From positions 744,001-808,000 of the forward strand of contig NZ_JTDN01000002.1 of assembly GCF_000802385.1 (NCBI RefSeq): DNA of 64,000 bases, in the 5' to 3' direction. Positions 5,407-61,578 of the stretch are shown piece by piece. Numbering within the stretch: the stretch's first letter is position 1; each line of letters opens with the position of its first letter. The notes beneath the pieces were generated by a model that worked only from the letters and a program-made list of their open reading frames with translations, did no database searches and was not told where the DNA came from. The DNA comes from Croceibacterium mercuriale. Lineage in GTDB: Bacteria > Pseudomonadota > Alphaproteobacteria > Sphingomonadales > Sphingomonadaceae. Position numbers and translations under genes: made by a program.

Positions 5407-5456
5407 GGCGCACCATCTGGCCAACGACCCTCGCGCGGCTTAAGCGACCGGTCGGC

Positions 5457-5541: not shown

Positions 5542-5558
5542 TGTTCGTTCGCGCGGGT

Positions 5559-13818: not shown

Positions 13819-14037
13819 GACGGGCAGATGGAGGCGGGCAGGTCCATCGGCAAGGGTGCGGGCTGCCCGCCTGATCCTGTGTGCCGCCCGACGGCCGATC
13901 CGCATCAATCGCGGCGCCAAAATAACGGGCAAGTGGCCGCGTCCCGAATTGAAACAGGGGGCATCAGGTTAATTACTTGCGGGCGCACCGCCATTTGCTA
14001 ACCGCATCCCTGATGGTTTTGTAACGGGGGTTTGGCG

Positions 14038-15128: not shown

Positions 15129-16430
15129 TCAACCTTCGGCAAGCGGTACCTGTAACCGGGCGACCAGCCCGCCGCCGGGCGGTGATTCGAAGGTCAGCGC
15201 ACCGTTGAAGCGCATCATCAGGTGATGGGCCGTGGGGATGCCTAGGCCAAACCCCTTGGTATTGCGCTGCCGGGCGACATCCAGGCGATAGAACGGCTGC
15301 AGGATCGCCTCGAACTCGGCCTGCGGGATACCCGGGCCGAGGTCGGTGATGGTGATGACCCAGCCATCCCCCGTCCGCCCGATCGTGATCGCCGCCGCAC
15401 CGCCATGGCGCGCCGCGTTCTCCACCAGCGCATGCACCGCCAGGCCCAGGGGTTCGGGGTAGGTGACCACCCACGCCGCCGGGCACGGGGCGATCGTGAC
15501 CTGCTCGCCGAACCCGGCCAGCGACTCGCGCAGGAACTCCGCCAGCTCGATCCGTTCGGGCGATGCGGTCAGGTGCTGCGCGCGCAGATAGGTCTGCAGC
15601 GATGTCAGCAGATCATCCATCTCGGTCGCGCTGCCGGTGATGATGCCGGCGATCTCCGCATCCTCCACGAAGGTGGCTGCGATCTTCTGCCGCGCGAGCG
15701 GCGTGCGCAGGTCATGGCTGATCGCCTCGAACGAACGGGCCTGGTCCTGCAGCAGCTGGGCGATCCGTTCCTGCATCACGTTCATGGCATGGGCCAGGTC
15801 GCGCAGGTCGCGAGGGCCGTGGCCCTCGTCGATGGTGACCTCCCGCCCATGGCCGATAGCCCCCGCGGCATCCGCCAGCCGCCGCAGGGGCGCCCCCAAC
15901 CGGTTCAGCAGGGCCAGCCCTGCGCCCAGGATCGCGACCGCCAGCACGAAGGTCAGCACATTGGCCCGCCAGGCGACCGGCCACATGGTGGAGATGTCGT
16001 GCGACCGGAAGTTCAGCCAGGTCCCGTCCGCCAGCTGCAGCGATCCGATCAGGTCGGTGCTGTTGCGGCTGGTGCGGACCAGCCTGAGGTGGAGCGAACG
16101 ATCGGCGAGCGACGGCTCCCACGCGATGATCCGGGCGGCGATGTCGCGCAGCATCTCGTCATGCGGGGCGCGCGTGACCCGCGGTGCCGACGCAATCCGC
16201 GCCACCAGGTGGCTGGTGGTCATGCTGCGCGCGGTCTGTTCCGGGGCGATGGCATGCAGGCGATCGCTCACCACCAGCAGTTCGGCCACACGGCGCGCAT
16301 GGTCGTCGCGCAGGGTCTGCCGGTCGATGATGCCGTAGAACATCAGGCTGCCGGCGAGCTGCACCAGCCCCAGCGTCAGGAACAGGCTCCCGATCAGGAC
16401 AGCGTAACGCGGGTACTGGAACCGTGGCAC
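15129..16430 (-). CDS. Orphan sensor histidine kinase
   Basis: This is a 433-residue membrane kinase. TM1 spans about residues 9-31, a periplasmic sensor of about 125 residues follows, and TM2 spans about 157-175. Then come HAMP, a HisKA domain with phospho-acceptor H239 in ISHDLRTPL, and an HATPase domain with N box HALVENAARHG and ATP-lid glycines in DLGPGIP and GFGLGI. All residues needed for autophosphorylation are present. It reads from a GTG start. No response regulator gene lies next to it, so the partner is elsewhere. Its position between the RTX gene and the wzc operon makes control of the exopolysaccharide genes a reasonable guess only. Confidence 0.88.
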   Translation of the reverse strand: MPRFQYPRYAVLIGSLFLTLGLVQLAGSLMFYGIIDRQTLRDDHARRVAELLVVSDRLHAIAPEQTARSMTTSHLVARIASAPRVTRAPHDEMLRDIAARIIAWEPSLADRSLHLRLVRTSRNSTDLIGSLQLADGTWLNFRSHDISTMWPVAWRANVLTFVLAVAILGAGLALLNRLGAPLRRLADAAGAIGHGREVTIDEGHGPRDLRDLAHAMNVMQERIAQLLQDQARSFEAISHDLRTPLARQKIAATFVEDAEIAGIITGSATEMDDLLTSLQTYLRAQHLTASPERIELAEFLRESLAGFGEQVTIAPCPAAWVVTYPEPLGLAVHALVENAARHGGAAAITIGRTGDGWVITITDLGPGIPQAEFEAILQPFYRLDVARQRNTKGFGLGIPTAHHLMMRFNGALTFESPPGGGLVARLQVPLAEG

Positions 16431-16555
16431 CGCCGGCGCATCCTGTGTTTCAGCTAGCGTGCTGATTGTCTCCTGCGCGCACGTTCCCAGCTAACCGGGG
16501 CAAGGTCAACCGGTCGTGGCGGGGGGATGCCGGCCGTTCCCCCGCGACGATCGTC

Positions 16556-18721: not shown

Positions 18722-18729
18722 GGCCGTCC

Positions 18730-20064
18730 TTATGGATGGATCGTCAGCGTCAGCAACGCGGCGAGTTCGTCGAAATCGGCCACGCCGATCGTGGCGGGGC
18801 TGGCATTGCGCCTGGTATAGGTCAGCCCCAGCCGGAGGTCGTACCAGCGGGGTGCGAAGTATTCGGCGGAGGCACCGGCCTGGCGCACGCGGAAGTCGAG
18901 GGGGGAGCGGACATAGTTGATCTGCCCCGCATATCCGCTGACGCCCAGCAACAGGTTGCGGCGCACCGCCCGCTCCACCGTCAGCCGCGCGCTGTTCTCG
19001 AAAAAGGCATCGCCGCCGATCGGCGCCTCCTGCAGCAGCCGGCGGCCGCGCACGGTGACATTGGTCAGCGGGTCGGCGAACCAGGTCAGTTCCCCCTGCG
19101 CGGACAGGCCGGAGATCGGCTCGTAGGCCGGATCGTCGAAGCCACGGCGGGTATAGCCGGCGGCGATCGTGCCCCGGAAACGGCCGGGCAGGTCGGCATT
19201 GACCCCCGCCAGCAGGCGCCAGCTCTGGCTGTCCCGGGCCGGTTCCAGCGTGGTGCCGGGAAACTGGTAGTCGGTCACCACATAGTTGCCCTGCAGATAG
19301 ACCACCCCGCCGGGCGTGAAGGCGTACTCTGCCTGCGCCGCGCCCGTGAAATCGCGGCGGTCCCGCGCGGCCTGGCTGATCCGCACGCCATCATCCTGCT
19401 CCAGGTCCGCGAAGCTGTAATCCTCCACCGCGGCAGTGGCGCTGAGGCGGGTGCGGCCGGCCTGGCGCGCGGCGCGCAAGGCGCCGAACGCGCGACGGTA
19501 GCGCGACAGGATCGCGGTGGCGGCATCGAGCCCGCTGGTGAAGGGCTCCTCCTGCACGCGCGACACGCGTGCCTCGGCCCCCAGATTGGCATAGTCGCTC
19601 AGGTCCAGCCGCCCGCTGGCCCCCAGGTCCCACTCGTTGCGGTTCAGCCGCTGCTCGCTGGCGAAGCGGGTGAGCACGGCAGAGGCGTTCAGGTCGATGC
19701 GGTGGCGGGCCCAGTCGCTGCGGACATCCACGCCCGGGCTGATCCGTGCATAGATGTCGCCATCGGGGTCGCCGCCGGCCAGGAAGGGGTTGTCCGATGC
19801 GCCGATCCCGGTGCCGACCCGCGGCAGGATCAGCAGCGTGCCGCGCCGGATGCCCAGGGGGCCATATTCCAGCAGGATCTGTTCCCGCAGGGACAGGTTG
19901 CGGTCCTGATCGTAATCCAGCGGCAGCACCGGATCGATGATGATACCGTCCTGCACCAGTGCCTGGCCCTGTGCCTGCATGGCGGGGGTGCAGCACGCGG
20001 CCAGCAGGACGGCGCAGAGCCGCCACGCCCATGCGCGGGACCGGCCAGTCGTTCGGGTGGCCAT
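18730..20064 (-). CDS. Outer-membrane beta-barrel protein of the exopolysaccharide export operon
   Basis: This 444-residue protein has a signal peptide (hydrophobic core AWRLCAVLLAACC, probable cleavage after AMQAQG). It is followed by alternating amphipathic strands rich in aromatic and Arg/Asp pairs that end in a strand with LTLTIHP, as expected of an outer-membrane barrel. Similar barrel proteins sit in sphingan and other alphaproteobacterial exopolysaccharide operons. It lies between wza (17 bp) and wzc (8 bp) on the same strand, which ties it to export, perhaps as a co-porin or assembly factor for the Wza channel. The barrel is inferred from pattern, not from a named catalytic motif. Confidence 0.75.
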   Translation of the reverse strand: MATRTTGRSRAWAWRLCAVLLAACCTPAMQAQGQALVQDGIIIDPVLPLDYDQDRNLSLREQILLEYGPLGIRRGTLLILPRVGTGIGASDNPFLAGGDPDGDIYARISPGVDVRSDWARHRIDLNASAVLTRFASEQRLNRNEWDLGASGRLDLSDYANLGAEARVSRVQEEPFTSGLDAATAILSRYRRAFGALRAARQAGRTRLSATAAVEDYSFADLEQDDGVRISQAARDRRDFTGAAQAEYAFTPGGVVYLQGNYVVTDYQFPGTTLEPARDSQSWRLLAGVNADLPGRFRGTIAAGYTRRGFDDPAYEPISGLSAQGELTWFADPLTNVTVRGRRLLQEAPIGGDAFFENSARLTVERAVRRNLLLGVSGYAGQINYVRSPLDFRVRQAGASAEYFAPRWYDLRLGLTYTRRNASPATIGVADFDELAALLTLTIHP

Positions 20065-20081
20065 GTCGACGGGGCCGGTGC

Positions 20082-20645
20082 CTAGAACAGCCGTTCGCCC
20101 ACGCGCAGCGTGTCACCCGGCCAGATCCGCAGATCGGCCGTGAGGCGGTAGGCGCGCTCGCCGTCGGAGCCGGCCTCGCGGATATACAGCACCCGCTTCT
20201 CCGACCGGGGCGTGAAGCCGCCCGCCGTGGCGATCGCGTTCAGCGCGGTCAGTCCGCTGGCGAATTCGTACCGGCCCGGCTGGTCCACCTCGCCCAGAAT
20301 GAAATACGGACGCAGGGTGATCAGTTCGACGTTGACGCGCGGATCCTTCAGGTACCCGTCCGCCAGCCGGGTGCGGATCGCCTCGGCCACGCTGTCGGCG
20401 GTCTGCTCCGTCACCGGAACCGCGCCGATCAGCGGCACGGAAATCGTGCCGGCGGGCCCGACCGGGAACTCGCCCGACAGGTTCTCTTCCCGATAGACGG
20501 TCACGCGCACGCGGTCGCCCACGCCCAGCAGGTAACCGTCATCGACAACCTGGTCGGAATAACGCGCGCCGCTGGCGATGGTCTCGCCGCCAACTGTGGC
20601 GCAGGCGCTGAGCATCAGCGCCAGGAGGCAGATCAAGAAACGCAC
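20082..20645 (-). CDS. wza: Polysaccharide export lipoprotein (Wza/GumB-like)
   Basis: This outer-membrane polysaccharide export protein of 187 residues begins at a GTG. The signal RFLICLLALMLSAC ends in a lipobox cysteine. Then comes the poly-export domain (YLLGVGDRVRVTVYREENLSG, ISVPLIGAVPV, LKDPRVNVEL) and a SLBB domain (YFILGEVDQPGRYEF, LNAIATAGGFTP). I prefer the GTG at 20645, preceded by TGGGGG, because it puts the signal peptide at the N-terminus. An upstream ATG at 20765 would add 40 Cys/Arg-rich residues. It is shorter than E. coli Wza (379) and like GumB (about 230). It heads the wza/barrel/wzc operon and is divergent from a glycosyltransferase. Confidence 0.88.
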   Translation of the reverse strand: MRFLICLLALMLSACATVGGETIASGARYSDQVVDDGYLLGVGDRVRVTVYREENLSGEFPVGPAGTISVPLIGAVPVTEQTADSVAEAIRTRLADGYLKDPRVNVELITLRPYFILGEVDQPGRYEFASGLTALNAIATAGGFTPRSEKRVLYIREAGSDGERAYRLTADLRIWPGDTLRVGERLF

Positions 20646-20854
20646 CGGAAACCCCCAGGCATGCCGGCAGCAGACGCCGGATCGCTGCAGTTTTTTTACG
20701 CCCGGGCAGCAGGCGTGGCAAGCGGCGCGGCATCGTTCCCGCGGGCTGGCGCGCGCCTGCCCCATTTTGGCTCGCCTGCAATGCCGGCTTGAGGAAGCAT
20801 GCTGCCTGCCGCACAGCGGATCGGCGCCGGTCGGTGCGGCGCTAAGGGGAACAG

Positions 20855-21940
20855 ATGAGCAGCAGCATCCGGCGGATCGTGATGGTCGCCCCGCATTTCG
20901 AGGAATATGCCTTCCTGCTGGCGCGGGCGCTGGCGCGCGAGGCGGCCGTGCTGCTGGTGGTGGACACTGCCCGGCTGGACGCCGACTACCAGGATCGGCC
21001 GCGCCCTGCGGCGGCGGCCGTCACGCTGCGGCACTGCACCTTCGGCGCGACCGAGCTGCCGGGGCTGGCGCTGGCGATCGCCCGCTTCCGCCCTGACGTG
21101 CTGCACTGGCAGGAACCTTCAGGCCTGGTGAAGGCGGTCATGGCGGCGGTGACCGTCACGCTGGCCGGCCCGTTCTGCCGCACCGCGCTGACGATCCACG
21201 ATGCGGTGCCGCATTCCGGGCGGGACGCCACGGTGGCCGCCCGCCTGGCACCGGTCCGCCGGTTTACCCGGGCACGGGTGCAGCGCCTGTTCGTGCATGG
21301 TCCGTCATGCGCCGAACAGTACCTGCAGGAGTACCTGCCCGCCCCGCATCGCGACCCGCGCCTGCGCCTGACGGAGCACGGCACCATCCTGGCCGGACCC
21401 GCTGTGCCCCCGCCGGCCGGGTTCCGCGTGCTGATGTTCGGCCGCATGGAAGCCTACAAGGGGCTGGACGTGCTGCTGGAGGCCTGGCGGCTGCTGGTCG
21501 CGCGCGGCGTGACCGCCGCGCTGGAGCTGGCGGGATCGGGACCGGAACTGGACCAGCTGGGACCAGAATTCGCCGCGCTGCCTGGAGTGACGGTCACGCC
21601 GGGCTACATCTCCTCCGCCCAGGTAATCGCCAAGATCGGCGCGGCGGATGCGCTGGTGCTGCCCTATCATAGCGCCACGCAGAGCGGCGTGCTGGCGGCG
21701 GCGATGGGCAATGGCCGCTTCGCCGTTGCCTCCCGCGTGGGCGGCATTCCCGACACGATCGAACACGGCAATAACGGCCTGCTGGTCGAACCCGGCGATG
21801 CGGCCGGGCTGGCCGATGCGCTGGCGCGGCTGGCCAACGATCCCGCGCTGCGCCGGCACCTGCAATCGGGCGCCGCCCGCACCGCGGCAACCCGGCTGGA
21901 TTGGGAACTGATCGCCCAAGGTATTCTGGCAGACTATTGA
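20855..21940 (+). CDS. Glycosyltransferase family 4
   Basis: This 361-residue GT-B fold enzyme is cytoplasmic and membrane-associated. The C-terminal Rossmann domain has the donor-binding segments LMFGRMEAYKGLDVLLEAW and GGIPDTIEHGNNGLLVEPGD. The EX7E motif of retaining GT4 enzymes is replaced by a run reading HSATQSGVLAAAMG, as in some exopolysaccharide transferases. It should add one sugar of the repeat unit from a nucleotide donor; the sugar cannot be deduced. The ATG at 20855 follows AAGGGGA. Its divergent neighbour is wza and its downstream neighbour is the RTX-GH12 gene. Confidence 0.85.
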   Translation: MSSSIRRIVMVAPHFEEYAFLLARALAREAAVLLVVDTARLDADYQDRPRPAAAAVTLRHCTFGATELPGLALAIARFRPDVLHWQEPSGLVKAVMAAVTVTLAGPFCRTALTIHDAVPHSGRDATVAARLAPVRRFTRARVQRLFVHGPSCAEQYLQEYLPAPHRDPRLRLTEHGTILAGPAVPPPAGFRVLMFGRMEAYKGLDVLLEAWRLLVARGVTAALELAGSGPELDQLGPEFAALPGVTVTPGYISSAQVIAKIGAADALVLPYHSATQSGVLAAAMGNGRFAVASRVGGIPDTIEHGNNGLLVEPGDAAGLADALARLANDPALRRHLQSGAARTAATRLDWELIAQGILADY

Positions 21941-22122
21941 ATTCATTGAGGCTTTGCGTCCCCTGGCGAACATGGATCATTAGCGGAAACCCCCTAGTTA
22001 AATCAGGGCCACGCTAGATGGATCGTCAAGAGGAATGAAACTGGGTTAACCGACAATAGAGACCTGACTCAAACCCCTTGACCCTAAACCCCGAAAAGTG
22101 GCGACTTTCTGGGAGTTTGATA

Positions 22123-24507
22123 ATGACCGAAGTCATTAATGGTTCGGCTGGGAATGATCTGTTTCATGGTGGCGATGACACGCTGCTGATTGGCGGGCTG
22201 GGAAACGATGTCTATTACTTGTGGTCGGCAACGTCACGGGCAGTAGAACAGGACGGCGAAGGCTTCGATACTATCTATGCCGGGTTCTGGGGCGCGGCCA
22301 TCATGCCCGAAGGGTTCGAGGCGCTGTGGCTGACCACGATGGGCAGCATCGCCGGGATCGGCAACAGCACCGCCAACCAGATCCATGGCGGGCCGGTGAT
22401 GGCGACGCTGAACGGCAAGGGCGGCGACGACATCCTGCATGGCGGCACCGGGCCTGACCTGTTCGTGGTGGAGGTCGGCAACGGCAGCGACACGCTGGTC
22501 GGGTTTACCTCCGGCTTCGACACGATCCGGCTGCAGGGCTACGGCTTCACCAGCTTCGCGGCCGTCCGGGGCGCGGCCACGCAGGCCGGCACCGACGTGG
22601 CGATCGCGCTGGGCAATGGGGAGCGGCTCACGCTGGCGGGCATCGACCTGGCCGGGCTGCAGGCCGCCGATTTCGGCTATTCCAACGTGGGCGCGCCTGT
22701 GCCGGACGGGCTGGCGCGGATCAGTGGCGAAGGCACGGTGGCGGCCAACGGCCTGTATGTGCACAACAATGTCTGGGGCGCCCACGGCCTGACGCCAGGC
22801 GTCGATTTCTTCATCGACAGCACCTACAAGCCCGGCGACTTCTCCGCCGCGACCACCTTCAACTGGGACTTTCCCGCCACCACCGATCCCTATGGACCGG
22901 TGCGCGGCTATCCGGAGCTCTTCTTCGGCGCGGCGCCGTTCGGCGATACGGTCAATGCGGCCGACACGACCCGCACCTTCCCGGTGCAGCTGTCGTCCAT
23001 CAGTGCGCTGACCACCACTTTCGACACGAGCATGACGGGCAGCACCGGCAGCTTCAACATCGCCTACGACATCTGGCTGACCAGCGCGCCCAATGGCGGC
23101 CCGGGCGAGATCACGAACGAGATCATGATCTGGACCCATGCGCACGAACACCAGCCATGGGGCGACAAGGTCGGCAGCTTCGAGGTCAGCGGCATCGCCG
23201 CCGAAGTCTGGCATTTCGACACCTACACCGCGGTGATCCTGGCAGACGACATGATGGCCGGCACGATCGACCTGGTGGACCTGTTCGCCAAGCTGGAGCA
23301 GCTGGGCATCGTCAGCCAGAACGAATGGCTTGCCTCCGTGCATTTCGGGGCCGAGATCATCGGCGGCGTCGGCTCGCTGACGATCAGCCAGTTCGACATC
23401 CGGATGACCGCCGAAGGGGCGGACGGCACGCTGACCACCACGCTGGTCGATGGCACCGGCGCGCAGGTGCTGGACGTGCAGGCGCCCACACCCGACGGCG
23501 GCATCCCCGGCCTGACCGCCGTGCATGACGAATATGGCCTGCTGACCGGCTACATCAGCGAGCATCAGGATGCGGTGGGCGATCCGCTGATCCGCCAGTA
23601 CGATACCACCGGCACGCTGACCGGCTGGGACATCATCGTCACCGTGGCCGACGGCCATGTCTTCACCAAGCATTTCGATGCCCGGGGCGTGCAGGTGGGC
23701 TACGATGCGGTGTACCGGCAGGGAGATGCGCTGGGTCTGGCCGCCTATGACAGCAGCGGCGCATTGCTGAGCTTCGCCCGCGAGTACCAGCGTGGTACCG
23801 CCAGCACGGAGACATTGCTGTACGATGCCGCATGGCAGCTGACCGGGCGTGAGCTGAAGGCGGTGTCAGGCAACACCACCACCATCAGCCACTATGCGGC
23901 GGATGGCAGCCTGACCGGCAGCACGGTGACGATCGCCGGCGCGGATGGTGCGGTCACCCGGGTCGAGCAGCGCGGTGCGGACGGCATGATCGACCGCTAC
24001 ACGGTGACGCAGGTCGATGCGGACGGCGTGCTCGCGGCGTTCCAGCATGATGGCGACGACCGCTTCCTGGGGGCCCATCATCGCTGGGTCCGGGATGACG
24101 GCGTGACCGTGCAGGCGGATTACGATGCCGGCTGGTCGCTGACCGGCCACACTTATGTCGGCACGGCAGCGGCCGACACGCTGTACCTGGCGGAAGGCCG
24201 CACGCTGGTTCTGGCTGGCGGCGGGGCCGACCACATTGTCGCCAGTCGCGGGGCCGACACCATCCATATCGGCCTGGGTGGCGCGCCGGTGACCATCGAC
24301 GGGTTCACCGCGGGCGAGGACCGGCTGGTGCTGGAACTGCAGGGCAGCCATTCCACGATCGCGGCGAACATGGCCACGCTGACCTACCACGCGGCGAGCG
24401 GCCAGGTGCTGTTCGATGCTGACGGGGCCGGTGCCGGCGCTGCCGTGGCGGTGGCCCAGTTGGCGGCGAACCTGGGGCTGGGTGGCGGCGATCTGCTGAT
24501 CGCCTGA
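22123..24507 (+). CDS. RTX-secreted glycoside hydrolase family 12 protein with nine 25-residue repeats
   Basis: This 794-residue secreted multidomain protein has no signal peptide. Residues 1-125 hold RTX-type segments (GSAGNDLFHGG, GKGGDDILHGG). Residues about 205-430 match GH12 (endo-beta-1,4-glucanase/xyloglucanase fold): NNVWG near the start, nucleophile E333 in NEIMIW and acid/base E411 in HFGAEIIGG. Residues about 466-677 carry nine tandem copies of a 25-residue unit with core (Y/F)Dxx(G/W)xLTG. Residues about 690-794 form a second RTX-like segment. The ATG at 22123 follows GGGAG at 7 bases; a TTG at 22078 is rejected. It lies inside the exopolysaccharide locus and probably cuts that polymer or a similar beta-glucan. 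Confidence 0.8.
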   Translation: MTEVINGSAGNDLFHGGDDTLLIGGLGNDVYYLWSATSRAVEQDGEGFDTIYAGFWGAAIMPEGFEALWLTTMGSIAGIGNSTANQIHGGPVMATLNGKGGDDILHGGTGPDLFVVEVGNGSDTLVGFTSGFDTIRLQGYGFTSFAAVRGAATQAGTDVAIALGNGERLTLAGIDLAGLQAADFGYSNVGAPVPDGLARISGEGTVAANGLYVHNNVWGAHGLTPGVDFFIDSTYKPGDFSAATTFNWDFPATTDPYGPVRGYPELFFGAAPFGDTVNAADTTRTFPVQLSSISALTTTFDTSMTGSTGSFNIAYDIWLTSAPNGGPGEITNEIMIWTHAHEHQPWGDKVGSFEVSGIAAEVWHFDTYTAVILADDMMAGTIDLVDLFAKLEQLGIVSQNEWLASVHFGAEIIGGVGSLTISQFDIRMTAEGADGTLTTTLVDGTGAQVLDVQAPTPDGGIPGLTAVHDEYGLLTGYISEHQDAVGDPLIRQYDTTGTLTGWDIIVTVADGHVFTKHFDARGVQVGYDAVYRQGDALGLAAYDSSGALLSFAREYQRGTASTETLLYDAAWQLTGRELKAVSGNTTTISHYAADGSLTGSTVTIAGADGAVTRVEQRGADGMIDRYTVTQVDADGVLAAFQHDGDDRFLGAHHRWVRDDGVTVQADYDAGWSLTGHTYVGTAAADTLYLAEGRTLVLAGGGADHIVASRGADTIHIGLGGAPVTIDGFTAGEDRLVLELQGSHSTIAANMATLTYHAASGQVLFDADGAGAGAAVAVAQLAANLGLGGGDLLIA

Positions 24508-24633
24508 CCGTCGCCTGCCGCATGACAGGGTGGGCGGTCCTGCCACAGATCGGGACTGTCCGCCCTGCCGCGCATGATTGCTGCCGCTTCGGCCGGCTGC
24601 TACTTCGCGCAATGTTGTCCGCGCGGAGCCACC

Positions 24634-25986
24634 ATGCAATCCACTGACCTGCGCGGCTGGCGCGGCCTGTCGCTCGACGATCTGCGCCAAGCGCTGGCCG
24701 TGGTCGTGCTGGGCGGTGTCGTCTTCATCAGCTCGACCAGGCTGACGCTGCTGCCGGGCGATTACCTGTTCGCCGGCGATTTCAGCGGCGAGGGCAATGT
24801 GGTGCGCCAGCTGCTCTATGTACTGGGCGCCGGGCTCATGCTGCTCACGGCCGATCCGCTGCGTCAGCCGGGCCGGCTGCTCGCCATGTCGCTGCCGATG
24901 CTGGCGCTGCTGGTCTGGTGCGTGGCCAGCATCGGCTGGTCCGTCGAGCCGGGCGTGGGCCTGCGCCGGCTGGTGCTGGCCATCCTGGTGATCTGGATGT
25001 GTTTCCGCACGATCGACGTGCTGGGTCCGCGCGCTGCGCTGGCGGTGGTGCTGTATGTCTCGTTCGGCCTGCTGATCGCCAACCTGCTGGCGGTGGCGGT
25101 GCACCCGGCGGCGATCCACCGGCTGCGCGGCGCGATCCTGGACGATTCGATCGTCGGCGCGTGGCGCGGCGTGATGCCGGAGAAGAACGGCGCCGGGTTG
25201 CTGACGGCGGTCACCATCATCCTGCTGTGCTTCGGTATCGGCCGCCTGGCCCTGCTGCTGCGCATCGGCCTGATCGCACTGGCGGCCATTTTCCTGCTCG
25301 GCACCCAGTCCAAGACCGCGATCGGCCTGGTCGGCATCGGCGTGATCACGGGCGGGCTGTACCAGCTCTATTCGCCGCGGCTCCGCCTGTTCCTGCTGCC
25401 GCTGCTGGCGATCGTGGGCGCAGGTGCGGTGCTGGCGGCGTGGGTCTACCTGCCGCCGCTCCTGCTGGAACTGGACAGCAGCCTCGACGCCTTTACCGGC
25501 CGGATCCAGATCTGGCGGGTGATGGTCGTCTATATCGCGGACCATCCATGGTTGGGCGCCGGGTTCGGCTCGGTATGGAACGTGGGACCGGCCTCGCCGA
25601 TCTACGATTACAGCAGCTCCCCGTGGATCACGAAGCTGATCGCGGAAGGGCACAATGGCTATCTCGATGTGATCATGCAGCTCGGCATACCGGGTGCCGT
25701 GCTGGCGGTGATCGTGCTGTTCGTGCTGCCGATCGCCAAGCTGCTGACGCTGGCGCCGGCCGCGCGCGATCTGGCGGGCGTGTGCCTGGGTGTGCTGGTC
25801 TTCTCCGTATTCCACAATCTGACCGAATCCAGCATCCTGTCGCCGGACCATTTCGGTCAGGTCATGATCGTGATCGCGGTCGCGGCTACGGATCAGCTGT
25901 GCGGCGGCTGGTGGCGGACGGGCCGTGGCGCCGGATGGCGCGCCGACAGGCCACCCTTGGGCCGCGAGCGGATCGAAGCGGCATGA
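24634..25986 (+). CDS. wzy: O-antigen ligase/polymerase-family protein (Wzy-like)
   Basis: This 450-residue membrane protein has about 11 helices and a large periplasmic loop. The Wzy_C/WaaL motif is seen in the loop: FTGRIQIW, HPWLGAGFGSV and then EGHNGYLDVIMQLG. The loop histidine and arginines are thought to bind the lipid-linked donor. In this locus it should polymerise the repeat units at the periplasmic face. The ATG at 24634 follows CGGAG; an upstream ATG at 24574 would add 20 Cys/Ala-rich residues. The 3' end overlaps the flippase start by ATGA, so wzy and wzx are coupled. Confidence 0.87.
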   Translation: MQSTDLRGWRGLSLDDLRQALAVVVLGGVVFISSTRLTLLPGDYLFAGDFSGEGNVVRQLLYVLGAGLMLLTADPLRQPGRLLAMSLPMLALLVWCVASIGWSVEPGVGLRRLVLAILVIWMCFRTIDVLGPRAALAVVLYVSFGLLIANLLAVAVHPAAIHRLRGAILDDSIVGAWRGVMPEKNGAGLLTAVTIILLCFGIGRLALLLRIGLIALAAIFLLGTQSKTAIGLVGIGVITGGLYQLYSPRLRLFLLPLLAIVGAGAVLAAWVYLPPLLLELDSSLDAFTGRIQIWRVMVVYIADHPWLGAGFGSVWNVGPASPIYDYSSSPWITKLIAEGHNGYLDVIMQLGIPGAVLAVIVLFVLPIAKLLTLAPAARDLAGVCLGVLVFSVFHNLTESSILSPDHFGQVMIVIAVAATDQLCGGWWRTGRGAGWRADRPPLGRERIEAA

Positions 25987-27251
25987 ACCACTGGCTGGTG
26001 GACAAGGCCGGACGCTACCTCGCGGCGGCGGTCGGGCCGATCGGGGTGGCGATCACCCATTTCGGGCTGGCGCTGGTGCTCCTGCGGCTGCTGCCGCCCG
26101 CCGCCTTCGGCACCTTTTCCGTCCTGCTGGTCGCCATCCAGCTGAGCTGGGGCATCTGGAGCGCGCTGCTGTGCGCTCCGCTGCCGGTGTTCCTGTCGCG
26201 CGGCGATGCGGCCGCGCGCGAAGCGGGGGAGGGGACGCTGTTGCGGCTGAACCTGCACGGGGCGATCATCGCGGTGCCGGTGTTCGCCGCACTGGGTCTC
26301 GCGCTGGACCTGCCGCGTTTCAGCGCCGCCTGCTTCGCGCTGTTCGGTGCGGTCGCGCTGCTGCGCTGGTTCGGGCGCGCCTTTGCCTACGTGCATGGCC
26401 GGCAGGCTCGCACGATGATGTCGGACCTGCTGTACAGCGTGGTCGTCATCGCCGTGCTGGCGCTGCTGGTGGCCGGGCTGGGGCGCGATGTCGAGCAATC
26501 CTGCTATCTGGCGCTGCTGGCCGGGGCCACGGCCGGGCTGCTGCCGTTCGGCCGGCACTATCTTGCCCGCATGGGCGGCTGGCGGCCGGCGGTGCTGCGC
26601 GAGTCCCTGCGGGAGTACCGCACGATCTGGCAGGGCCAGTCCCGCTGGGCGCTGCTGGGCGTGATGACGACGGAGGCGACCGCTAACGCCCATGTCTACA
26701 TCGTCACCGCCATCAGCGGTGCCGCCGCCTTTGCACCGATCGCCGCCAGTGCGCTGCTGCTGCGCCCGGTCAACGTGGCGCAGAATGCGCTAGCCGATTT
26801 CGAACGACCGATGCTGGCGCGCGCGATCGGCGCGGGCGAACTGGCGAGCATACCGCGTTCGCTGCTGGTGTTCCGGCTGGCGCTGATCGGCATCTGGCTG
26901 GGTACGATCGCGGTCGGGGCCGGGCTGTTCGTGTGGGCGCCGGATCTGCTGTTCCCGCCGGCCTACGACCTGGATTTCCTGATCGTCGCCGCATTGTTGT
27001 GGGCGGTGTTCGCGCTGCTGCGGCTGCTGCAGACGCCCGAAAGCGCCCTGCTGCAGGCCGCGGGCGAATTCCGTGACCTGGCCATGGCCAGCGTCTGGTC
27101 GGCGCTGGGCAGCGTGATCGCGGTCACCGGGCTGGTGCTGCTGGCCGGCACGCTGTGGTCGATCGGCGGCATCGTCGCCGGTGCGGTCGTCTATCTGTGG
27201 TGGACCTGGCGCTTCGCCCGCCGCTGGCTGCGAGCCGCGCCAACCGCCTGA
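25983..27251 (+). CDS. wzx: Polysaccharide flippase (Wzx-like, MOP superfamily)
   Basis: This 422-residue integral membrane protein has about 12 helices and charged turns (LLRLLPPAAFGTFSVLLVAIQ near the start), in the pattern of polysaccharide flippases. It should move the undecaprenyl-linked repeat unit across the inner membrane. Its ATG at 25983 overlaps the wzy stop, confirming the start. It ends immediately before the convergent acyltransferase stop, with no spacer. Confidence 0.82.
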   Translation: MNHWLVDKAGRYLAAAVGPIGVAITHFGLALVLLRLLPPAAFGTFSVLLVAIQLSWGIWSALLCAPLPVFLSRGDAAAREAGEGTLLRLNLHGAIIAVPVFAALGLALDLPRFSAACFALFGAVALLRWFGRAFAYVHGRQARTMMSDLLYSVVVIAVLALLVAGLGRDVEQSCYLALLAGATAGLLPFGRHYLARMGGWRPAVLRESLREYRTIWQGQSRWALLGVMTTEATANAHVYIVTAISGAAAFAPIAASALLLRPVNVAQNALADFERPMLARAIGAGELASIPRSLLVFRLALIGIWLGTIAVGAGLFVWAPDLLFPPAYDLDFLIVAALLWAVFALLRLLQTPESALLQAAGEFRDLAMASVWSALGSVIAVTGLVLLAGTLWSIGGIVAGAVVYLWWTWRFARRWLRAAPTA

Positions 27252-28358
27252 TCAGGCGACCACTGGCAGCGGCGGTCGCTTGCGCCCGGTCAGCGCCGCC
27301 AGCCGGCGGGTCAGCGGACGTTCCAGCCAGCGGAAGATCAGCCAGCCACCGACATTGCAGGCCACCAGCGCCAGCGCGACGAACAGCGCCGGCCCCGCGC
27401 GCATGGCCGCCAGCGGCGTCCGCTCCCACACGGCATACAGCACCATCAGCATCAGCGGGTGGAACAGATATGTGCTGTAGGATGCATCGCCCGCCGCCTC
27501 CGCCACCAGACCGGCGCGGGGGTAGCGATGGCCTGCATGGCTGGTGCACAGCCACGCCGACAGGCCGCCCGCCACCGCGAACAGCGCCTGCCACCACACC
27601 GGCATGGGAAAGCCGCCGCCAGCCGCCAGGAAGATGGCGATCGCCGCCCCCAGCACCGCGACGGTCCCCGCAACCGGATGGCGCACCTGATGCCACTGCG
27701 TCCGGCGCAGCTGCACCAGCCCGATCACCAGCCCGATGACGAACAGCAGCGTGATCGGATCGGACCAGAACGGCAGCGGGCTGGTGGGATCGCGATACGG
27801 TACCAGTGGCCACACCAGCGATCGCAGCGCGATCACCAGCGGAAAGAAGCCGAGCAGCACCGGCAGGCCGATCCGCCGCGGCAGCAGCAGTGTGGCGGTG
27901 AACAGCACGTAGAACAGCATCTCGTAATTCAGCGTCCAGCCCTGGCCGACGATCGGCCGGGCAGCCTCCATCCCCGTGCCGGCATAGGGGATGAACAACA
28001 GCGAGCGCACGACCATGTCCGCTGTCAGCGCCTCCCCCCGGGCGACCTGCGCCACCGCGAAGGGGATCGTCGCCAGCCAGTAGAGCGGCACCACGCGCAC
28101 CACCCGGCGCAGCGCGAACCGGCGCGCCGCCTCCGCCGACCCGAACTCGCGATCGGCACTGTGGATCATGATCAGCCCGCTGATGACGAAGAACACCGCC
28201 ACCCCCAGCCAGCCCAGCGCCCAGGCCAGCCGGTAGAACTCCTCGGGCAACAGACCGCGCCGGATCGGATATTCCACCGCATGCGTCGCCACCACCGCCG
28301 ATGCGGCGAGCCCGCGCAGGGTCTGCAGGTGAACCAATTTGGGCTTTGCCGGCACCAT
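27252..28358 (-). CDS. Acyltransferase 3 family membrane protein (OafA/ExoZ-like)
   Basis: This 368-residue protein has about 10 helices and the AT3 signature in the first helix: LQTLRGLAASAVVATHAVEY, whose R-x10-H pair is essential in the family. FFVISGLIMIHSADREF follows in the expected place. AT3 enzymes carry acetyl, succinyl or similar groups across the membrane to glycans. I chose the ATG at 28358 because AGGG precedes it. The gene is divergent from a second AT3 gene with only 43 bp between the starts. It probably adds an acyl decoration to the exopolysaccharide. Confidence 0.86.
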   Translation of the reverse strand: MVPAKPKLVHLQTLRGLAASAVVATHAVEYPIRRGLLPEEFYRLAWALGWLGVAVFFVISGLIMIHSADREFGSAEAARRFALRRVVRVVPLYWLATIPFAVAQVARGEALTADMVVRSLLFIPYAGTGMEAARPIVGQGWTLNYEMLFYVLFTATLLLPRRIGLPVLLGFFPLVIALRSLVWPLVPYRDPTSPLPFWSDPITLLFVIGLVIGLVQLRRTQWHQVRHPVAGTVAVLGAAIAIFLAAGGGFPMPVWWQALFAVAGGLSAWLCTSHAGHRYPRAGLVAEAAGDASYSTYLFHPLMLMVLYAVWERTPLAAMRAGPALFVALALVACNVGGWLIFRWLERPLTRRLAALTGRKRPPLPVVA

Positions 28359-28401
28359 ATTTCTACCCTGTCGCATGGCGTGTTGTTGTAGAAGCATCCG
28401 C

Positions 28402-29502
28402 ATGGCCACCGCACCCCGAACGAAGACCACGATCCTGTCCCTGCAGGTGATGCGCGCGCTCGCGGCGCTGGCCGTCGTCGCCTACCACGTCGGCATCATC
28501 ATGGCAGAGCCGAAATATGGCGCCATGGGGCAATTCGAACGGCCGACCGGGCTGGGCTGGCTGGGCGTGAACTTCTTCTTCGTGCTCAGCGGCTTCATCA
28601 TCTGCTTCGCCCATGCCCGCGACATCGGCCAGCCGCGCAAGCTCGGACCGTACCTGTGGCGGCGGTTCGCCCGCGTTTACCCGGCATACTGGGTGTTCCT
28701 GACCCTGTTCGTCGTCGCGGCACTGGCGGGCTTCGGCTATGTCAGCTTCTCCACCGACTGGCGCAACATGCTCACCGCCTACACGCTGGTGCGCTTCACC
28801 GACACGCCCACCCTGCCGCTGAAGGTTGCCTGGACGCTGGTGTTCGAGGTGTTCTTCTACGGGATGTTCGCGCTGCTGATCGTGAACCGCTGGCTGGGCA
28901 TCGCGGCCTTTGCCATCTGGGCGGCGGCGATCGTGTGGACATCCTTCATCGTCGGCACGACCACGATCAACCTGGCCAGCGCCTGGGCGGTGAACTTCCT
29001 GTTCGGTGCGCTCGCCTACTGGCTGTTCGTCCGCACGACCCCGCGATACGGCCTGCCCCTGCTGCTCGGGTCCGGGGCGGCGCTGGCGCTGCTGCTGGCC
29101 AGCCCGCTGTTCAATGCCGACATCGAGGCGCAGCAGGGCGCACCCGGCCCGCTGGTGCTGGTAGGATTGCTGATGATGGGCGTGATGCTGGGGGGCGCAA
29201 TGACCGAACGGCACCGGGGCTATGCCCCGTCGCGCCTGATGCTGCTGCTGGGGGAGGCGTCGTATTCGATCTACCTCGTCCATTCGGCCGTGATCTCTGC
29301 CATCTGCCTGATCCATGCCCGCCTGATGCCAGGCCTGCTGCCGCAACCGGTAATGTTCGGGGTCATCTTCGTGGGCAGCACCTGCGCGGGCGTGGCGGCG
29401 CATCTGCTGGTGGAGCGGCCGCTGGTGCAGCTCGCCCGGCGCCTGCCGGCGGGCCGCTGGGCTCAGCTGCCGCACGAATGGTTGCGGCGGCCGATCGTCT
29501 GA
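28402..29502 (+). CDS. Second acyltransferase 3 family membrane protein
   Basis: This 366-residue AT3 protein has LQVMRALAALAVVAYHVGI (R-x10-H pair) in helix 1, FFFVLSGFIICF in helix 2, and the family's EASYSIYLVHS near the last helices. Helix count is about 10. The ATG at 28402 gives a short basic N-tail. It is divergent from the other AT3 gene, and the two proteins are not close copies. Two acyltransferases suggest two kinds of decoration, or the same group on different sugars. The 153 bp that follow, up to the convergent GT4 gene, hold no feature I could recognise. Confidence 0.86.
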   Translation: MATAPRTKTTILSLQVMRALAALAVVAYHVGIIMAEPKYGAMGQFERPTGLGWLGVNFFFVLSGFIICFAHARDIGQPRKLGPYLWRRFARVYPAYWVFLTLFVVAALAGFGYVSFSTDWRNMLTAYTLVRFTDTPTLPLKVAWTLVFEVFFYGMFALLIVNRWLGIAAFAIWAAAIVWTSFIVGTTTINLASAWAVNFLFGALAYWLFVRTTPRYGLPLLLGSGAALALLLASPLFNADIEAQQGAPGPLVLVGLLMMGVMLGGAMTERHRGYAPSRLMLLLGEASYSIYLVHSAVISAICLIHARLMPGLLPQPVMFGVIFVGSTCAGVAAHLLVERPLVQLARRLPAGRWAQLPHEWLRRPIV

Positions 29503-29656
29503 TCGCCTGGGCTGCAGGTTCACCAGCGCGCAGCCACAAGCGCGACCACGCGCCCCACCCAGATGCCGGAAACGAGGCGGCCTCAGGCTACCGAACAGTC
29601 CGAGCCAAATGACCGGACCGGCTTCTACACCCGCCAAGGCATGATGCCCGACTGAT

Positions 29657-30721
29657 TTACGCGTTCACGGCCTGGTCTGTGGCGGTCTGCTGCAGCGCCT
29701 GCGCCAGTTGCGCCGCCGCCGCCTGCCAGCCCAGCGACTCGCGCACCCTTGCCGACTGTGCCTGGCCGCGCCGGCGCAGATCGTCCGCTTCAGCGGTCGC
29801 CAGGAAGGCCGCAGTCTGCGCGATATCGGCCGCCGGATCGACGATCAGTCCGTCGAACCGGCCCACGATGTTGCGTGCACCGGCGAGGTCCAGCGCGATC
29901 GGGAACATGCCGCAGGCCAGTGCCTCCAGCACGATCAGCGGATACGAATCGATCGTGGACAGATGCACCAGCACGTCGCTCACCCGCAGCCGCTCCATCA
30001 GTGCGGCGGGTTCGATCCAGCCGGTCAGGTGGACATGGGCCGCAAGGTCATGCGCGGCGATCAGCGCGCGCAACGCCACAAAGGTCGCCTCGTCCGCGCC
30101 GCCGGCGATCTCCAGCGTGAACGGCACGCCGCGATCCCGCAGGGCGGCAGCGACCTCGACCACCTTGAAGGTGCCCTTCTCGCGCGAAAGGCGGCTGGCA
30201 TGGAGCAGTCGCAGCGGGCCGGTCTGCGCGGCGCGGGGTACCGGGAGCAGCACTTCGGCCGGCAGGAAGGTGCTGACGGCGCTCTGCGGCACGCGCCCGG
30301 GCAGGGCGACTTCCTCTGCCTGGGTCGGTGCCAACAGCGCAATGCGTTGCGCCCGGCCCAGCAGGCTGCGGCTGAGCGCACGCAGGCGCGGATCGCGCTG
30401 GGAACGCCAGTTGCTACCCAGATGCGGCGTCACCATCACGCGCAGGCCGAGAGCGCGCGCGACAAGGATGTAGGCCAGATCCGGCAGGTTCACATATTGC
30501 AGCCACACCACGCCGTGGCCGCCCAGCCTGAAACGGGCCACACCGGCAATCCCGCCCAGCAGTTGGGACAGCGTGCGCGCCGAGAGATAGGCGGTGTAGG
30601 TGCCGGCATGGCGGACGCTCAGCGCGGGGAAATGGTCGGCCAGCGCCTGCACCGCACGGGTGCAGAACGTCTCCACCCCGCCGAAATGCCGGGGTGAGCC
30701 GCCAAGAACCAGGACTCTCAT
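29657..30721 (-). CDS. Glycosyltransferase family 4
   Basis: This 354-residue GT-B enzyme has GGSPRHFGGVETF at the N-terminus (acceptor domain). The donor domain carries LLHASRLSREKGTFKVVEVAAAL and SYPLIVLEALACGMFPIA, where the family glutamate lies in VLEALACG. It should add a sugar to the lipid-linked exopolysaccharide intermediate. The ATG at 30721 overlaps the stop of the WecG/TagA-type gene (ATGA), so the two transferases are made together and may act one after the other. Confidence 0.85.
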   Translation of the reverse strand: MRVLVLGGSPRHFGGVETFCTRAVQALADHFPALSVRHAGTYTAYLSARTLSQLLGGIAGVARFRLGGHGVVWLQYVNLPDLAYILVARALGLRVMVTPHLGSNWRSQRDPRLRALSRSLLGRAQRIALLAPTQAEEVALPGRVPQSAVSTFLPAEVLLPVPRAAQTGPLRLLHASRLSREKGTFKVVEVAAALRDRGVPFTLEIAGGADEATFVALRALIAAHDLAAHVHLTGWIEPAALMERLRVSDVLVHLSTIDSYPLIVLEALACGMFPIALDLAGARNIVGRFDGLIVDPAADIAQTAAFLATAEADDLRRRGQAQSARVRESLGWQAAAAQLAQALQQTATDQAVNA

Positions 30722-31659
30722 TCGCCGGTCGGTTCGGTCCAGCCGCGCGGGCCCGGCACCGGACCGGCGATCACCTGCCGCGCGCTGCGCTGCCGCAGCA
30801 CCGCCGCCAGGAAGGTGGCATTGCCCAGAAGGTAGCGGCTGGCCAGCCGGCGCGGCTCCTGCAGCAGGCGATAGGCCCATTCCAGCCGGAGATTGCGCAC
30901 CGTCACTGGCGCGCGGCTGACGCGGCCGGCAGCGAAATCGAGGAATGCGCCCACGCACAGGATCGGCGCGGCCAGCGCCTCATGGTTGCGCGCCGCCCAC
31001 AACTCCTGCCACGGATTGCCCATCGCCACGATCACCAGAGCCGCACCGGATGCAGCGATCTGCTGCAGCAGGAGGGGTTCGTCATGTGGCGTGAAATAGC
31101 CATGCTGCGTGCCGACCACCGTGATGCCATGGCGCTGTTCCAGCACCGTTGCCGCATCCTGCGCCACGCCGGGCCGACTGCCCAGCAGAAACACGGGCGT
31201 GCCGGCAGGCAGGGCATCCAGCAGTGCCGGGGTCAGGTCCGTGCCGTTCAGGTTTTCCGGGAAGCTGGCACCGTATAGCAGGCGGCTGGCGAGATCGACG
31301 CCGATGCCGTCATTGAACACGGTGGCGTGGCGCAGCGCCTCGCGCAGGTCGGCACGACTGTTGGCGAGGTTCGCGGTGTGAGCATTGCAGAAGGCGAACA
31401 TGCCCCCTTGCCGCCGGGTGACCTGGTCGACGATCAGCGCAACGGCCTGCGGGCCGGACAGTGCGGCCACGTTCACGCCCAGGATCTGGCGGACATCGGG
31501 CCCGGCACCGACCGGCGCGCGGTTGTCCGACACGGCAAGGGGGTAGGCCTGGGTTCGCCGGGCGCCTGTGTTCGCGCTGCCGCGCGGCGATGGCGGAGCG
31601 AAGTCGATACTTGCACGATGGCTGTGCGCCACGTCGGCAAATGGGATGTCACGGCGCAT
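30718..31659 (-). CDS. WecG/TagA/CpsF-family glycosyltransferase (GT26)
   Basis: This 313-residue enzyme of GT26 shows the conserved runs FCNAHTANLAN, FNDGIGVDLASRLLYG, VFLLGSRPGVAQ and VAMGNPWQELWAARN. Family members move ManNAc, ManNAcA or glucose to a lipid-linked acceptor at the inner membrane; GumM of the xanthan pathway is one example. The first 50 residues are a poorly conserved tail. The start at 31659 is supported by GGAGG five bases upstream. It is first in a two-gene unit with the GT4 at 29657. The 366 bp upstream are unusually rich in inverted repeats (described separately). Confidence 0.86.
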   Translation of the reverse strand: MRRDIPFADVAHSHRASIDFAPPSPRGSANTGARRTQAYPLAVSDNRAPVGAGPDVRQILGVNVAALSGPQAVALIVDQVTRRQGGMFAFCNAHTANLANSRADLREALRHATVFNDGIGVDLASRLLYGASFPENLNGTDLTPALLDALPAGTPVFLLGSRPGVAQDAATVLEQRHGITVVGTQHGYFTPHDEPLLLQQIAASGAALVIVAMGNPWQELWAARNHEALAAPILCVGAFLDFAAGRVSRAPVTVRNLRLEWAYRLLQEPRRLASRYLLGNATFLAAVLRQRSARQVIAGPVPGPRGWTEPTGE

Positions 31660-32025
31660 AGTGCCTCCGGCGACAAGTAAGGGTTAAGATAAAGTATTGC
31701 AGAAAGACTATCAGGTCTTTGAACGGCGATCACGGGGAACGTGATTAGATCGGGTTATGATCGCGTTGCTAGCAGATCATTGCAGCCGAGCAACGGCTCG
31801 GGCGAGCCGTTTCCACGATGTGCCATCACGGCACAAATCCAGACAGCCAGTGTCGAACACAAGACAAAGCGAAAGTGCATCATCGGCGTGGCGCAACTAG
31901 CCCTGCCCGGGCGCATGACCCCGCGGGCTCAAAGCCCGGTGCGTGGTCCCGATGATGAGGAAATTGGTTTCAGGCCAGACCGGATGGAAGGTCGTTGCCG
32001 GCCTGCCGTCCGTTCCGGAACCGGG
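31660..32025. promoter_or_regulatory. Palindrome-dense intergenic control region
   Basis: These 366 bases between the sugar transferase gene and the GT26 gene carry no gene. The half near the GT26 start is AT-rich compared with the flanks. Seven perfect inverted repeats lie in about 235 bp: AAAGAC-6-GTCTTT (31703-31720), ATCACG-5-CGTGAT (31729-31745), ATGATC-12-GATCAT (31757-31780, enclosing TGCTAGCA), CCGAGC-4-GCTCGG (31786-31801), ACGGCTCG-2-CGAGCCGT (31793-31810), GTGCC-5-GGCAC (31820-31834) and CGGGCT-3-AGCCCG (31924-31938). The fourth and fifth overlap and could be alternative hairpins. They may be operators or leader RNA structure for the minus-strand GT26/GT4 unit. Confidence 0.5.
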
Positions 32026-33432
32026 TCAGAATGCCCGGTCGTGCACCACCACCTTGGCGGTGGCGAAGATGATGCGGATGTCGCGCCAGATGCTCCAGCC
32101 CGCCAGATATTCCAAGTCCGCCTGCAGCCGACCCGTCAGATCGCTTTCCTTGTCGGTCGCGCCGCGAAAGCCGCGGATCTGCGCCAGGCCGGTAATGCCT
32201 GGACGCAGGCAGTGGCGCTGCCAGTAGCGGCGGTCCACCTGCCAGAACAGCTTGTTGCCCGCCTGGCTGCCCAGCGCATGGGGACGTGGGCCGACGATGC
32301 TCATGTCGCCCTGCAGCACGTTGATCAGCTGCGGCAGCTCGTCCAGACTGGTCTTGCGCAGGAAGGATCCGATGCGCGTGATGCGGTCGTCATCCTTGCT
32401 GGCCGACCGGTTGCCGTCGGCATCGGACTGCTCGACCTTCATGGATCGCAGCTTGTAGATGCGGAAGAACCGGTTGCCCTGACCCAGCCGCCGCTGGCGG
32501 AAGAACACCGGCCCGCCATCCTCCAGCTTGACCAGCAGCGCCGCCGCCAGCAGCACCGGGGACAACGCCAGCAGCGCCAGGCCCGATACCAGGATGTCGA
32601 ACATCCGCTTGGCCGCCCGGTCGCGCATGCCCAGCGGTCCGGTGGATACCAGGAGGGAGGAAACGTCCGCATTCTCGCGATGGACCACGCCAAGGGCGCC
32701 GATCTCGCGCACGATGCCACTGGTCACCTCGCCATGCACGCCCGAACCCTTCAGCACCATGGCCCAGGCCGCGCGCAGTTCGGGCGGGCAGTTCACCACC
32801 ACCTCGTCCATGTTGCGCAGGTACCGTGCCAGCCGGTCCAGCATGTGCGGGTCGTCCAGCACCGGCGAGAGCCCGTGCTCGTACGCGTCGATGCGATACG
32901 AATGCGGGATGGCGATGGGCGGGCCGCCGGCGTCGATCAGCAGCAGGTTCATGGGGCTGGGACCCCAGTGCTTGCGGATCCAGCGGGTCGTGAAGAAGCG
33001 CGTGGAGGACAGCACCAGCAGTGTGGAGCTCACCCCGCCGAACAGCACCAGACGGGAGAACGAGTCGGAGACCTTCACGAAATAGGCGATGAAGGTCAGC
33101 AGGACGGCGGCGATCAGCACGGCGGATGCCATGCGGCCGGCCGCCTGCTTCCAGTCGGTCAGCGTGATCAGCGAATAGGTGCCGTTGTGCAGCGCGATCG
33201 TCAGGTAGATGGGCAGCAGCAGATTGCCGACCAGCAGTTCCGCCGCATCGGGGACATGCCCGAACCACAGCAACGCCGTGCCGAAAAAGCACAGGACGAG
33301 CAGCGCGGAATCAAGCGCGATCTGCGTGCCGTAGACCTGCAGCCGCTTGCGTTCCAGCGAAGGGGCAAGACCACTTGGCGAAACACGGGGCAGCAGCCGC
33401 TCGCCTTCAATTCTGAATGCCGGTGCGTTCAT
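32026..33432 (-). CDS. Undecaprenyl-phosphate sugar phosphotransferase (initiating enzyme)
   Basis: This 468-residue polyprenyl glycosylphosphotransferase has four to five N-terminal helices (about residues 35-150), a soluble linker domain and a C-terminal bacterial sugar transferase domain. That domain is marked by [33 protein letters not shown] and [12 protein letters not shown]. It loads sugar-1-phosphate, in most relatives glucose-1-phosphate from UDP-glucose, onto undecaprenyl phosphate and so starts each repeat unit. galU at 42.2 kb can supply UDP-glucose. The ATG at 33432 is the only good start. It is the rightmost gene of the exopolysaccharide locus. Confidence 0.92.
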
Positions 33433-41680: not shown

Positions 41681-41890
41681 GTGGAGATAGAGGGCCACCG
41701 CACCTCCATCAGTCTGGAGCCTCTTTTCTGGGACTGGCTGAAGGAGGCGGCGGCGGCCGAGGGCGTGCCGTTGTCACGGCTGGTGGCGCGGATCGATGCG
41801 GAACGCATCGCCGCGCCCACGCCGCCGGGCCTGGCCGGCGCGATCCGCCTGTGGCTGGCGGCGCGCCGGGCGCAAGGGACCGGTCAGTAG
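41681..41890 (+). CDS. Ribbon-helix-helix domain protein (RHH_4 type)
   Basis: This small DNA-binding protein has at least 69 residues. The core HRTSISLEPLFWDWLKEAAAAEG, VPLSRLVARIDAER and LAGAIRLWLAARR match the alphaproteobacterial RHH_4 family. The first standard start is the GTG at 41681. However, the frame stays open upstream and encodes YHPPIKRSVEIEGHR, which resembles the usual family N-terminus. The true start may be the CTG at 41642, which overlaps the fumC stop as CTGA. Targets are unknown. The last seven bases overlap the convergent gene at 41884-42123. Confidence 0.75.
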   Translation: MEIEGHRTSISLEPLFWDWLKEAAAAEGVPLSRLVARIDAERIAAPTPPGLAGAIRLWLAARRAQGTGQ

Positions 41891-42123
41891 GTGGAGGGGG
41901 GATCGCTGGCCGGGAAGCTCTGGTCCGAGCTTTCGTCGGTCGCGTCCCACTCGGCATTCTTGCCGCCGGCCATGGCGGCCGGCCCGCTGCTGCGGAACTG
42001 GGCGAAGTTGTCGTCGGTGTTTTCACCCTTGGCGAACGCGGCATGGTTGCGCTTCTCGCCGGTCATGTACTTGTAGAGACCATATCCCGCCGCGCCCAGG
42101 GCGGCCATTCGCAGCAATGCCAT
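41884..42123 (-). CDS. Small membrane-anchored protein with FPASDPPS tail
   Basis: This 79-residue protein has a short hydrophobic N-terminus (LLRMAALGAAGYGLYKYM), which may anchor it in the inner membrane. A polar middle follows, and the C-terminal tail SDQSFPASDPPSTY matches the D-x-x-FPASDPPS motif seen at the ends of many small alphaproteobacterial proteins of unknown role. Its last seven bases overlap the end of the ribbon-helix-helix gene on the other strand. No function can be given. Confidence 0.65.
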   Translation of the reverse strand: MALLRMAALGAAGYGLYKYMTGEKRNHAAFAKGENTDDNFAQFRSSGPAAMAGGKNAEWDATDESSDQSFPASDPPSTY

Positions 42124-61521: not shown

Positions 61522-61578
61522 AACGAACCGGCGGCAAAGGTCAACCCGCCGCCGGTCCTTGCGGGGCGCTCCGCGCCG

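Follow-up and report, generated by a model that had tools for sequence, protein, structure and literature searches.

Do the inverted repeats crowded into the spacer ahead of a wecG-type gene of Croceibacterium mercuriale serve the expression of that gene, or are they a by-product of mutation? The spacer lies between a gene for a polyprenyl-phosphate sugar transferase and a pair of overlapping glycosyltransferase genes (Table 1); all positions refer to the window, as we call the whole stretch of 64,000 nt that was analysed. The initial annotation of this DNA had proposed a multi-operator region, a structured leader RNA or a trace of recombination. The genome has 3.48 Mb, and the genus is small; five of its genomes, this one included, were available.

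Positions 15129–33432 of the window make up a promonan-like EPS locus. The genes around the spacer encode Wzz/AAA, BBP2_2 outer-membrane barrel, Poly_export (Wza-type) and Wzy_C proteins, glycosyltransferases, two acyltransferases and a GH12 protein; a histidine kinase, the GT4-type enzyme, WecG and the sugar-phosphate transferase are further parts of the locus. The promonan locus of Sphingomonas sp. LM7, in the sections of its description used here (PMC11340318), likewise brings together an initiating sugar transferase, an outer-membrane barrel, Wza and Wzz with a WecG-type glycosyltransferase, Wzy, an acyltransferase and a glycosyl hydrolase. The two loci are likened by gene content, not by sequence: gene order and strands differ, a GH12 gene is found here and GH10/GH16 genes there, and among the annotated genes those present here are of the GT4 type rather than GT2. 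Deletion of the WecG-type gene in LM7 gave an EPS-minus phenotype according to the same sections, which make no mention of a hairpin-rich spacer (PMC11340318); among the entries listed by our literature search, none dealt with the present spacer.

The segment between the genes is most likely a non-coding 5′ regulatory spacer of the wecG–GT4 genes in the EPS locus. The 220 bp adjoining wecG have no coding pattern in any of six frames when compared with Croceibacterium ferulae (26, 29 and 36 changes at the three codon positions). Neither strand of 31400–32200 contains an intrinsic terminator (a stem followed by a T run) or a match to a sigma-70 promoter, and no −35/−10 pair was found at shared columns of both species at the thresholds applied. 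None of the 4227 Rfam covariance models reached its gathering score in 31400–32300; there were six weak matches, all well under that score, for example BjrC80 (21.4 versus 80 bits) and Peptidase-S11 RNA (18.9 versus 34.8). Plasmids gave no DNA match to the spacer at E 1e-5.

Table 1. Genes, sequence blocks and hairpins around the wecG spacer. Negative positions are counted from the wecG start; pairs are Watson–Crick pairs.
Feature	Position	Strand	Evidence or remark
GT4-type glycosyltransferase gene, overlaps wecG end	29657..30736	-	PF00534
WecG/TagA/CpsF (GT26) gene, downstream of hairpin chain	30718..31659	-	PF03808, E 1.3e-53
Non-coding spacer, 366 bp, sugar-transferase gene to wecG	31660..32025	-	ORFs, Pfam
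Ribosome-binding block, GGAGG, before wecG ATG at 31659	31660..31681	-	22/22 bases identical in C. ferulae
Chain of hairpins, predicted to fold strongly	31700..31838		z -4.6 (plus strand), -3.0 (minus strand)
Hairpin 1, AAAGAC-6-GTCTTT	31703..31720		C. ferulae: 4/6 pairs kept, 2 by double change
Hairpin 2, ATCACG-5-CGTGAT	31729..31745		C. ferulae: 4/6 pairs kept
Hairpin 3, ATGATC-12-GATCAT	31757..31780		C. ferulae: 4/6 pairs kept, 1 by double change
Hairpin 4, AACGGCTC-4-GAGCCGTT (31792-31811)	31784..31811		C. ferulae: 3/8 pairs kept, not conserved
Hairpin 4, overlapping alternatives	31784-31798, 31786-31801		Perfect inverted repeats
Hairpin 5, TGTGCC-5-GGCACA, best-conserved dyad	31819..31835		C. 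ferulae: 11/12 arm bases, 5/6 pairs kept
Best-conserved upstream block (TCGCTTTGTCT ... TGGCACATCG), -213 to -157, contains hairpin 5	31816..31872	-	Candidate promoter/regulator region
9-bp inverted repeat CATCATCGG/CCGATGATG enclosing 62 bases, including weaker repeats 31905-31938	31878..31957		
Polyprenyl-phosphate sugar transferase gene, upstream of spacer	32026..33432	-	PF02397; TIGR03025 above cut-off

The packing of inverted repeats in 31703–31938 is real and had been placed correctly, except that there are nine perfect repeats (arms 5–8, loops 3–15), not just the seven first counted. Two of them had been described as overlapping alternatives; they do overlap, and the alternatives in 31784–31811 number three. 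The repeated ATCACGG is present as well, at 31729 and 31825, and looks incidental because C. ferulae does not have either copy in exact form. With arms of at least six and loops of at most eight, the stretch has six repeats against a mean of 0.36 in dinucleotide shuffles (none of 400 reached six), and the maximum of the window falls within it. The region had also been called far denser than the other intergenic regions. This is correct for arms of at least six, with six repeats here and zero to two in each of the 23 other spacers longer than 100 bp (as defined by a rough gene caller), but is poorly borne out for arms of at least five: seven repeats are found here, the window has 7–9 per 236 bp in several other places and another, longer spacer holds seven in 606 bp. 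Sampling 400 kb of the genome gave five clusters with at least five repeats per 236 bp, one of them with six, so that density by itself makes the region only a mild outlier.

The distinctive feature is instead a chain of five consecutive, non-overlapping perfect hairpins, which takes up 133 bp (31703–31835) with gaps of 7–11 bases. Under criteria set post hoc (arm 6+, loop 3–12, gap up to 12), by which significance is somewhat inflated, 20,000 shuffles of the spacer yielded no chain of at least four hairpins, and no other such chain was found in the rest of the window and the 400-kb sample (5,000 bases masked); on these two counts a chance origin of the chain is unlikely and was rejected. Inverted repeats are generally abundant near bacterial regulatory regions, as stated in the part of the literature on them that we drew on (PMC10434271), so that the setting is ordinary while the arrangement is not. 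The long 9-bp repeat farther upstream has no clear counterpart in C. ferulae, where this part of the spacer aligns poorly, and the fold of the element (31879–31959) is unremarkable (z −1.8/−1.5). Elsewhere in the window, the cluster at 41735–42066, with five perfect inverted repeats (arms of at least six, loops of at most eight), is the second densest.

The chain is also exceptional in its predicted fold. Repeat runs on nearly the same 139-nt stretch gave z values of −3.9 to −4.5 on the plus strand and −2.8 to −3.0 on the minus strand. The controls were 240 windows placed at random (two strands at each of 120 places, 50 shuffles per window), with a lowest z of −3.3 and five values at or below −2.8, and 54 other intergenic tiles, with a lowest z of −3.45 and one value at or below −2.8. 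The plus-strand value of the chain lies beyond every control, and the minus-strand value is among their lowest few per cent. The spacer folded whole does no better than its shuffles (z −1.2 and −1.3). Among the intergenic tiles, the one at 61414–61552 of the window has a strong plus-strand fold (z −3.45).

Among relatives a homologous spacer was found only in C. ferulae, both by a DNA search of 397 family genomes and by a covariance model run against 249. Gene order on both sides of the spacer is that of C. ferulae, except for the acyltransferase gene at 28402–29502; the C. ferulae assembly breaks inside the sugar-transferase gene, and adjacency there relies on the split gene. The acyltransferase gene, encoded on the plus strand, has no counterpart at the corresponding position, and its best match (31%) within the 59 kb of C. 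ferulae that were searched sits between the Wza-type gene and the glycosyltransferase gene after it. The two spacers align without gaps over the stretch that runs from about −220 to the wecG start, with 129 of 220 positions identical (about 58%); above about −220 similarity is near background (4–9 of 20 positions per ungapped block). At 53% overall, identity is the lowest among 12 aligned spacers, the other 11 ranging from 63 to 90%; for this comparison 14 of the 24 spacers longer than 100 bp were tried and two of these skipped for inserts, the rest being without a fetched counterpart or unchosen. The other 11 spacers have 24 gap events per 416 substitutions, and the complete absence of gaps among about 90 substitutions here is, by simple arithmetic, unusual; a gapless run is also found in spacer 13819–14037 (145 columns, 55% identity). 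Spacer 5407–5558 of the window, 152 bp long here, measures 1646 bp in C. ferulae, which points to an insertion or a loss.

The excess of perfect repeats is not found in the C. ferulae spacer (one repeat versus 0.57 expected). In that species 20 of the 32 Watson–Crick pairs of the chain are kept, four of them via double change, as against 13.3 with identities permuted among arm positions (P 0.002). Nine pairs are changed on both sides, and the four that re-pair are at chance level (P 0.34 when the positions that changed are held constant). Both positions of a pair are kept, or both are changed, in 25 of 32 cases, compared with 16.1 ± 2.9 under random placement (P 0.0024; P 0.0013 under a base-specific null) and with 10–21 at the other 24 slid positions. 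This pattern would fit a symmetric constraint, imposed by a protein or by RNA, and falls short of proving the pairing itself; the available data do not support helices that are conserved as a set.

C. ferulae has a strong predicted fold of its own, formed through an unrelated long hairpin. In a window chosen after a prior fold scan (−162 to −62), its minus strand has a z of −3.7, and none of 120 randomly drawn 100-nt windows of its contig is as low as −2.2. Over the same positions C. mercuriale reaches only −1.9 on the minus and −1.7 on the plus strand, and C. ferulae over the full chain (−179 to −41) only −1.9 and −1.7. The strong predicted folds of the two species thus share part of their location but occupy different windows.

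The reading to which we give a slight preference, at a probability of about 0.38, is that the hairpin chain is a putative leader, structured and non-coding, at the 5′ end of a wecG transcript read from the minus strand of an EPS operon. RNA polymerase would initiate within the conserved block (−213 to −157) or above it, or else read through from the sugar-transferase gene. The RNA would then fold into a row of hairpins that stops 43 nt short of the start codon and leaves the GGAGG ribosome site outside, and selection would keep the fold and not the sequence. Such a leader may protect the 5′ end, or tune the read-through or expression of wecG. Among known systems, the EAR of Bacillus eps is a structured 5′ leader of an EPS/capsule operon.

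The leader is preferred because the segment folds exceptionally in both species, while the ribosome site is conserved and the length has stayed the same. Its observed basis comprises the hairpin excess, the predicted fold, the gapless homology with C. ferulae, the conserved ribosome site and the different strong fold of C. ferulae in an overlapping window; from these we infer transcription, its strand, the position of the promoter and an effect on wecG expression. Low conservation, the differing windows and the restriction to two species hold the probability back, as does the better fold of the plus strand, which is a point against a leader on the minus strand. The structured leader RNA of the initial annotation is in this way partly borne out, with an exceptional fold here and a different one in C. 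ferulae, but without conserved helices. As to conservation among close relatives, which had been named as the point on which the repeats might fail, it is missing for the hairpins and present for the length next to wecG, the ribosome-binding block and the upstream block. That the strong folds lie in different windows makes the leader slightly less likely and the mutational origin discussed below slightly more so. A stricter version of the leader is also made slightly less likely: an EPS leader RNA in the most diverged spacer, whose dense fold is conserved with its helices wholly replaced between sister species and with no change of length by the gene, appears improbable.

What competes best with the leader is a possible origin by mutation, to which we assign a slightly lower likelihood: the spacer diverges fast, and template switching at quasipalindromes would have left a lineage-specific chain without a role. 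The lowest identity among the aligned spacers, the absence of the chain hairpins from C. ferulae, the double changes in the arms, which are not compensatory, and the position of the strong folds in different windows all argue for this. A single template switch can give rise to perfect stems, as described in the portion of the source used here (PMC8794818), and the present hairpins are alike in having short perfect stems that could arise at one stroke. However, both arms differ from C. ferulae in four of the five hairpins, where a single recent switch would leave one arm changed, and two species do not allow an ancestor to be reconstructed. Five hairpins in a row are, moreover, far from chance, and paired positions co-vary in conservation. 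Template switching is possible as a real alternative origin, and function would not thereby be excluded. Of the trace of recombination proposed earlier, small-scale template-switch mutation is the possible part; no repeated element was found in the own genome, and gene order agrees with C. ferulae but for the one acyltransferase gene. If the fold is unused, the chain would neatly illustrate how mutation can build hairpins in a spacer, and would caution against taking hairpin density by itself as a sign of function. If it is used, it would add a regulatory layer to the wecG-type EPS step in Sphingomonadales and provide a natural case of structure kept with both sequence and helices replaced.

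The mirror-symmetric conservation of the arms leaves room for operators, and each inverted repeat might then be a putative site for a dimeric regulator controlling wecG, which we consider unlikely. Besides this symmetry, hairpin 5 retains nearly all its arm bases in C. ferulae, and the dyad centres, 25–33 bp apart, have equal spacing there. The hairpin 5 motif, allowing one mismatch, occurs at about double the frequency of its reversed control in C. ferulae (12+13 versus 7+3) and in another member of the genus, G004 (11+12 versus 6+7); in the own genome, though, the counts match the control (15+17 versus 14+14). Also against operators, the five dyads have no motif in common, and hairpin 4 is not conserved. 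The exact motif TGTRCCnnnnnGGCACA occurs once in the own genome and once in C. ferulae, both times at the wecG spacer, and once in G004. The multi-operator region of the initial annotation is not supported, as the five dyads differ and the best-conserved of them is exact only here in the own genome and in C. ferulae. A repeated operator array in the sense of a shared motif or regulon finds no support either, the dyads being different and the motif counts in the own genome being those of the control.

A small RNA encoded on the plus strand, opposite the wecG leader, is improbable, even though the chain folds better on that strand (z −4.6 versus −3.0). A two-species consensus fold is significant there in five of nine windows (p 0.010–0.045) and in none of nine on the minus strand (p 0.30–0.84). 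Counting G–U, C. ferulae keeps 25 of the 32 pairs on the plus strand and 21 on the minus strand, and hairpin 5 alone has 6/6 pairs on the plus strand with one G–U. The strand bias of the pairs is, however, within chance (P 0.17–0.23), neither strand has a terminator or promoter match, and at −162 to −62 the better fold of C. ferulae is that of the minus strand. An RNA covariance model (R1) matched three of 249 family genomes: the own genome, C. ferulae and, weakly, a third (G066, E 0.04). The third match was set aside as chance, since it lies inside a long open frame and aligns poorly.

Two further known classes find no support. REP/BIME repeats are intergenic palindromes present in many copies per genome; the chain too is made of intergenic palindromes, but it is single copy with each hairpin different, and a search of the own genome gave a single full match, besides 37 short ones with E 0.0075 or worse. 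The leaders of the RfaH–ops and UpxY systems, in the excerpted account used here (PMC7819879), are alike as non-coding leaders ahead of polysaccharide genes in which hairpins are possible; an RfaH/ops-type leader, which would call for a specialised NusG paralog, is not supported, as each of three genomes has one PF02357 (NusG family) match and no second.

The DNA search of the family matched six of the 397 genomes. Beyond the own genome and C. ferulae these were four short matches, all over hairpin 4, which were discarded: two lie inside long reading frames and two are coding-like by eye. Upstream regions were compared for the closest wecG homologs, which are 54–61% identical in three relatives (G004, G017 and G097), distant homologs (38 of 199 genomes matched, 79 loci) being left out; no similar spacer lies upstream of the homolog in G004 (aligned) or in G017 and G097 (by eye). 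In G004, which belongs to the same genus, another gene is found 30–70 bp past the sugar-transferase gene. The wecG homolog of that genome follows, instead of the sugar-transferase gene, an RNase P RNA gene (RF00010, 252.8 bits; L154 5171–5579).
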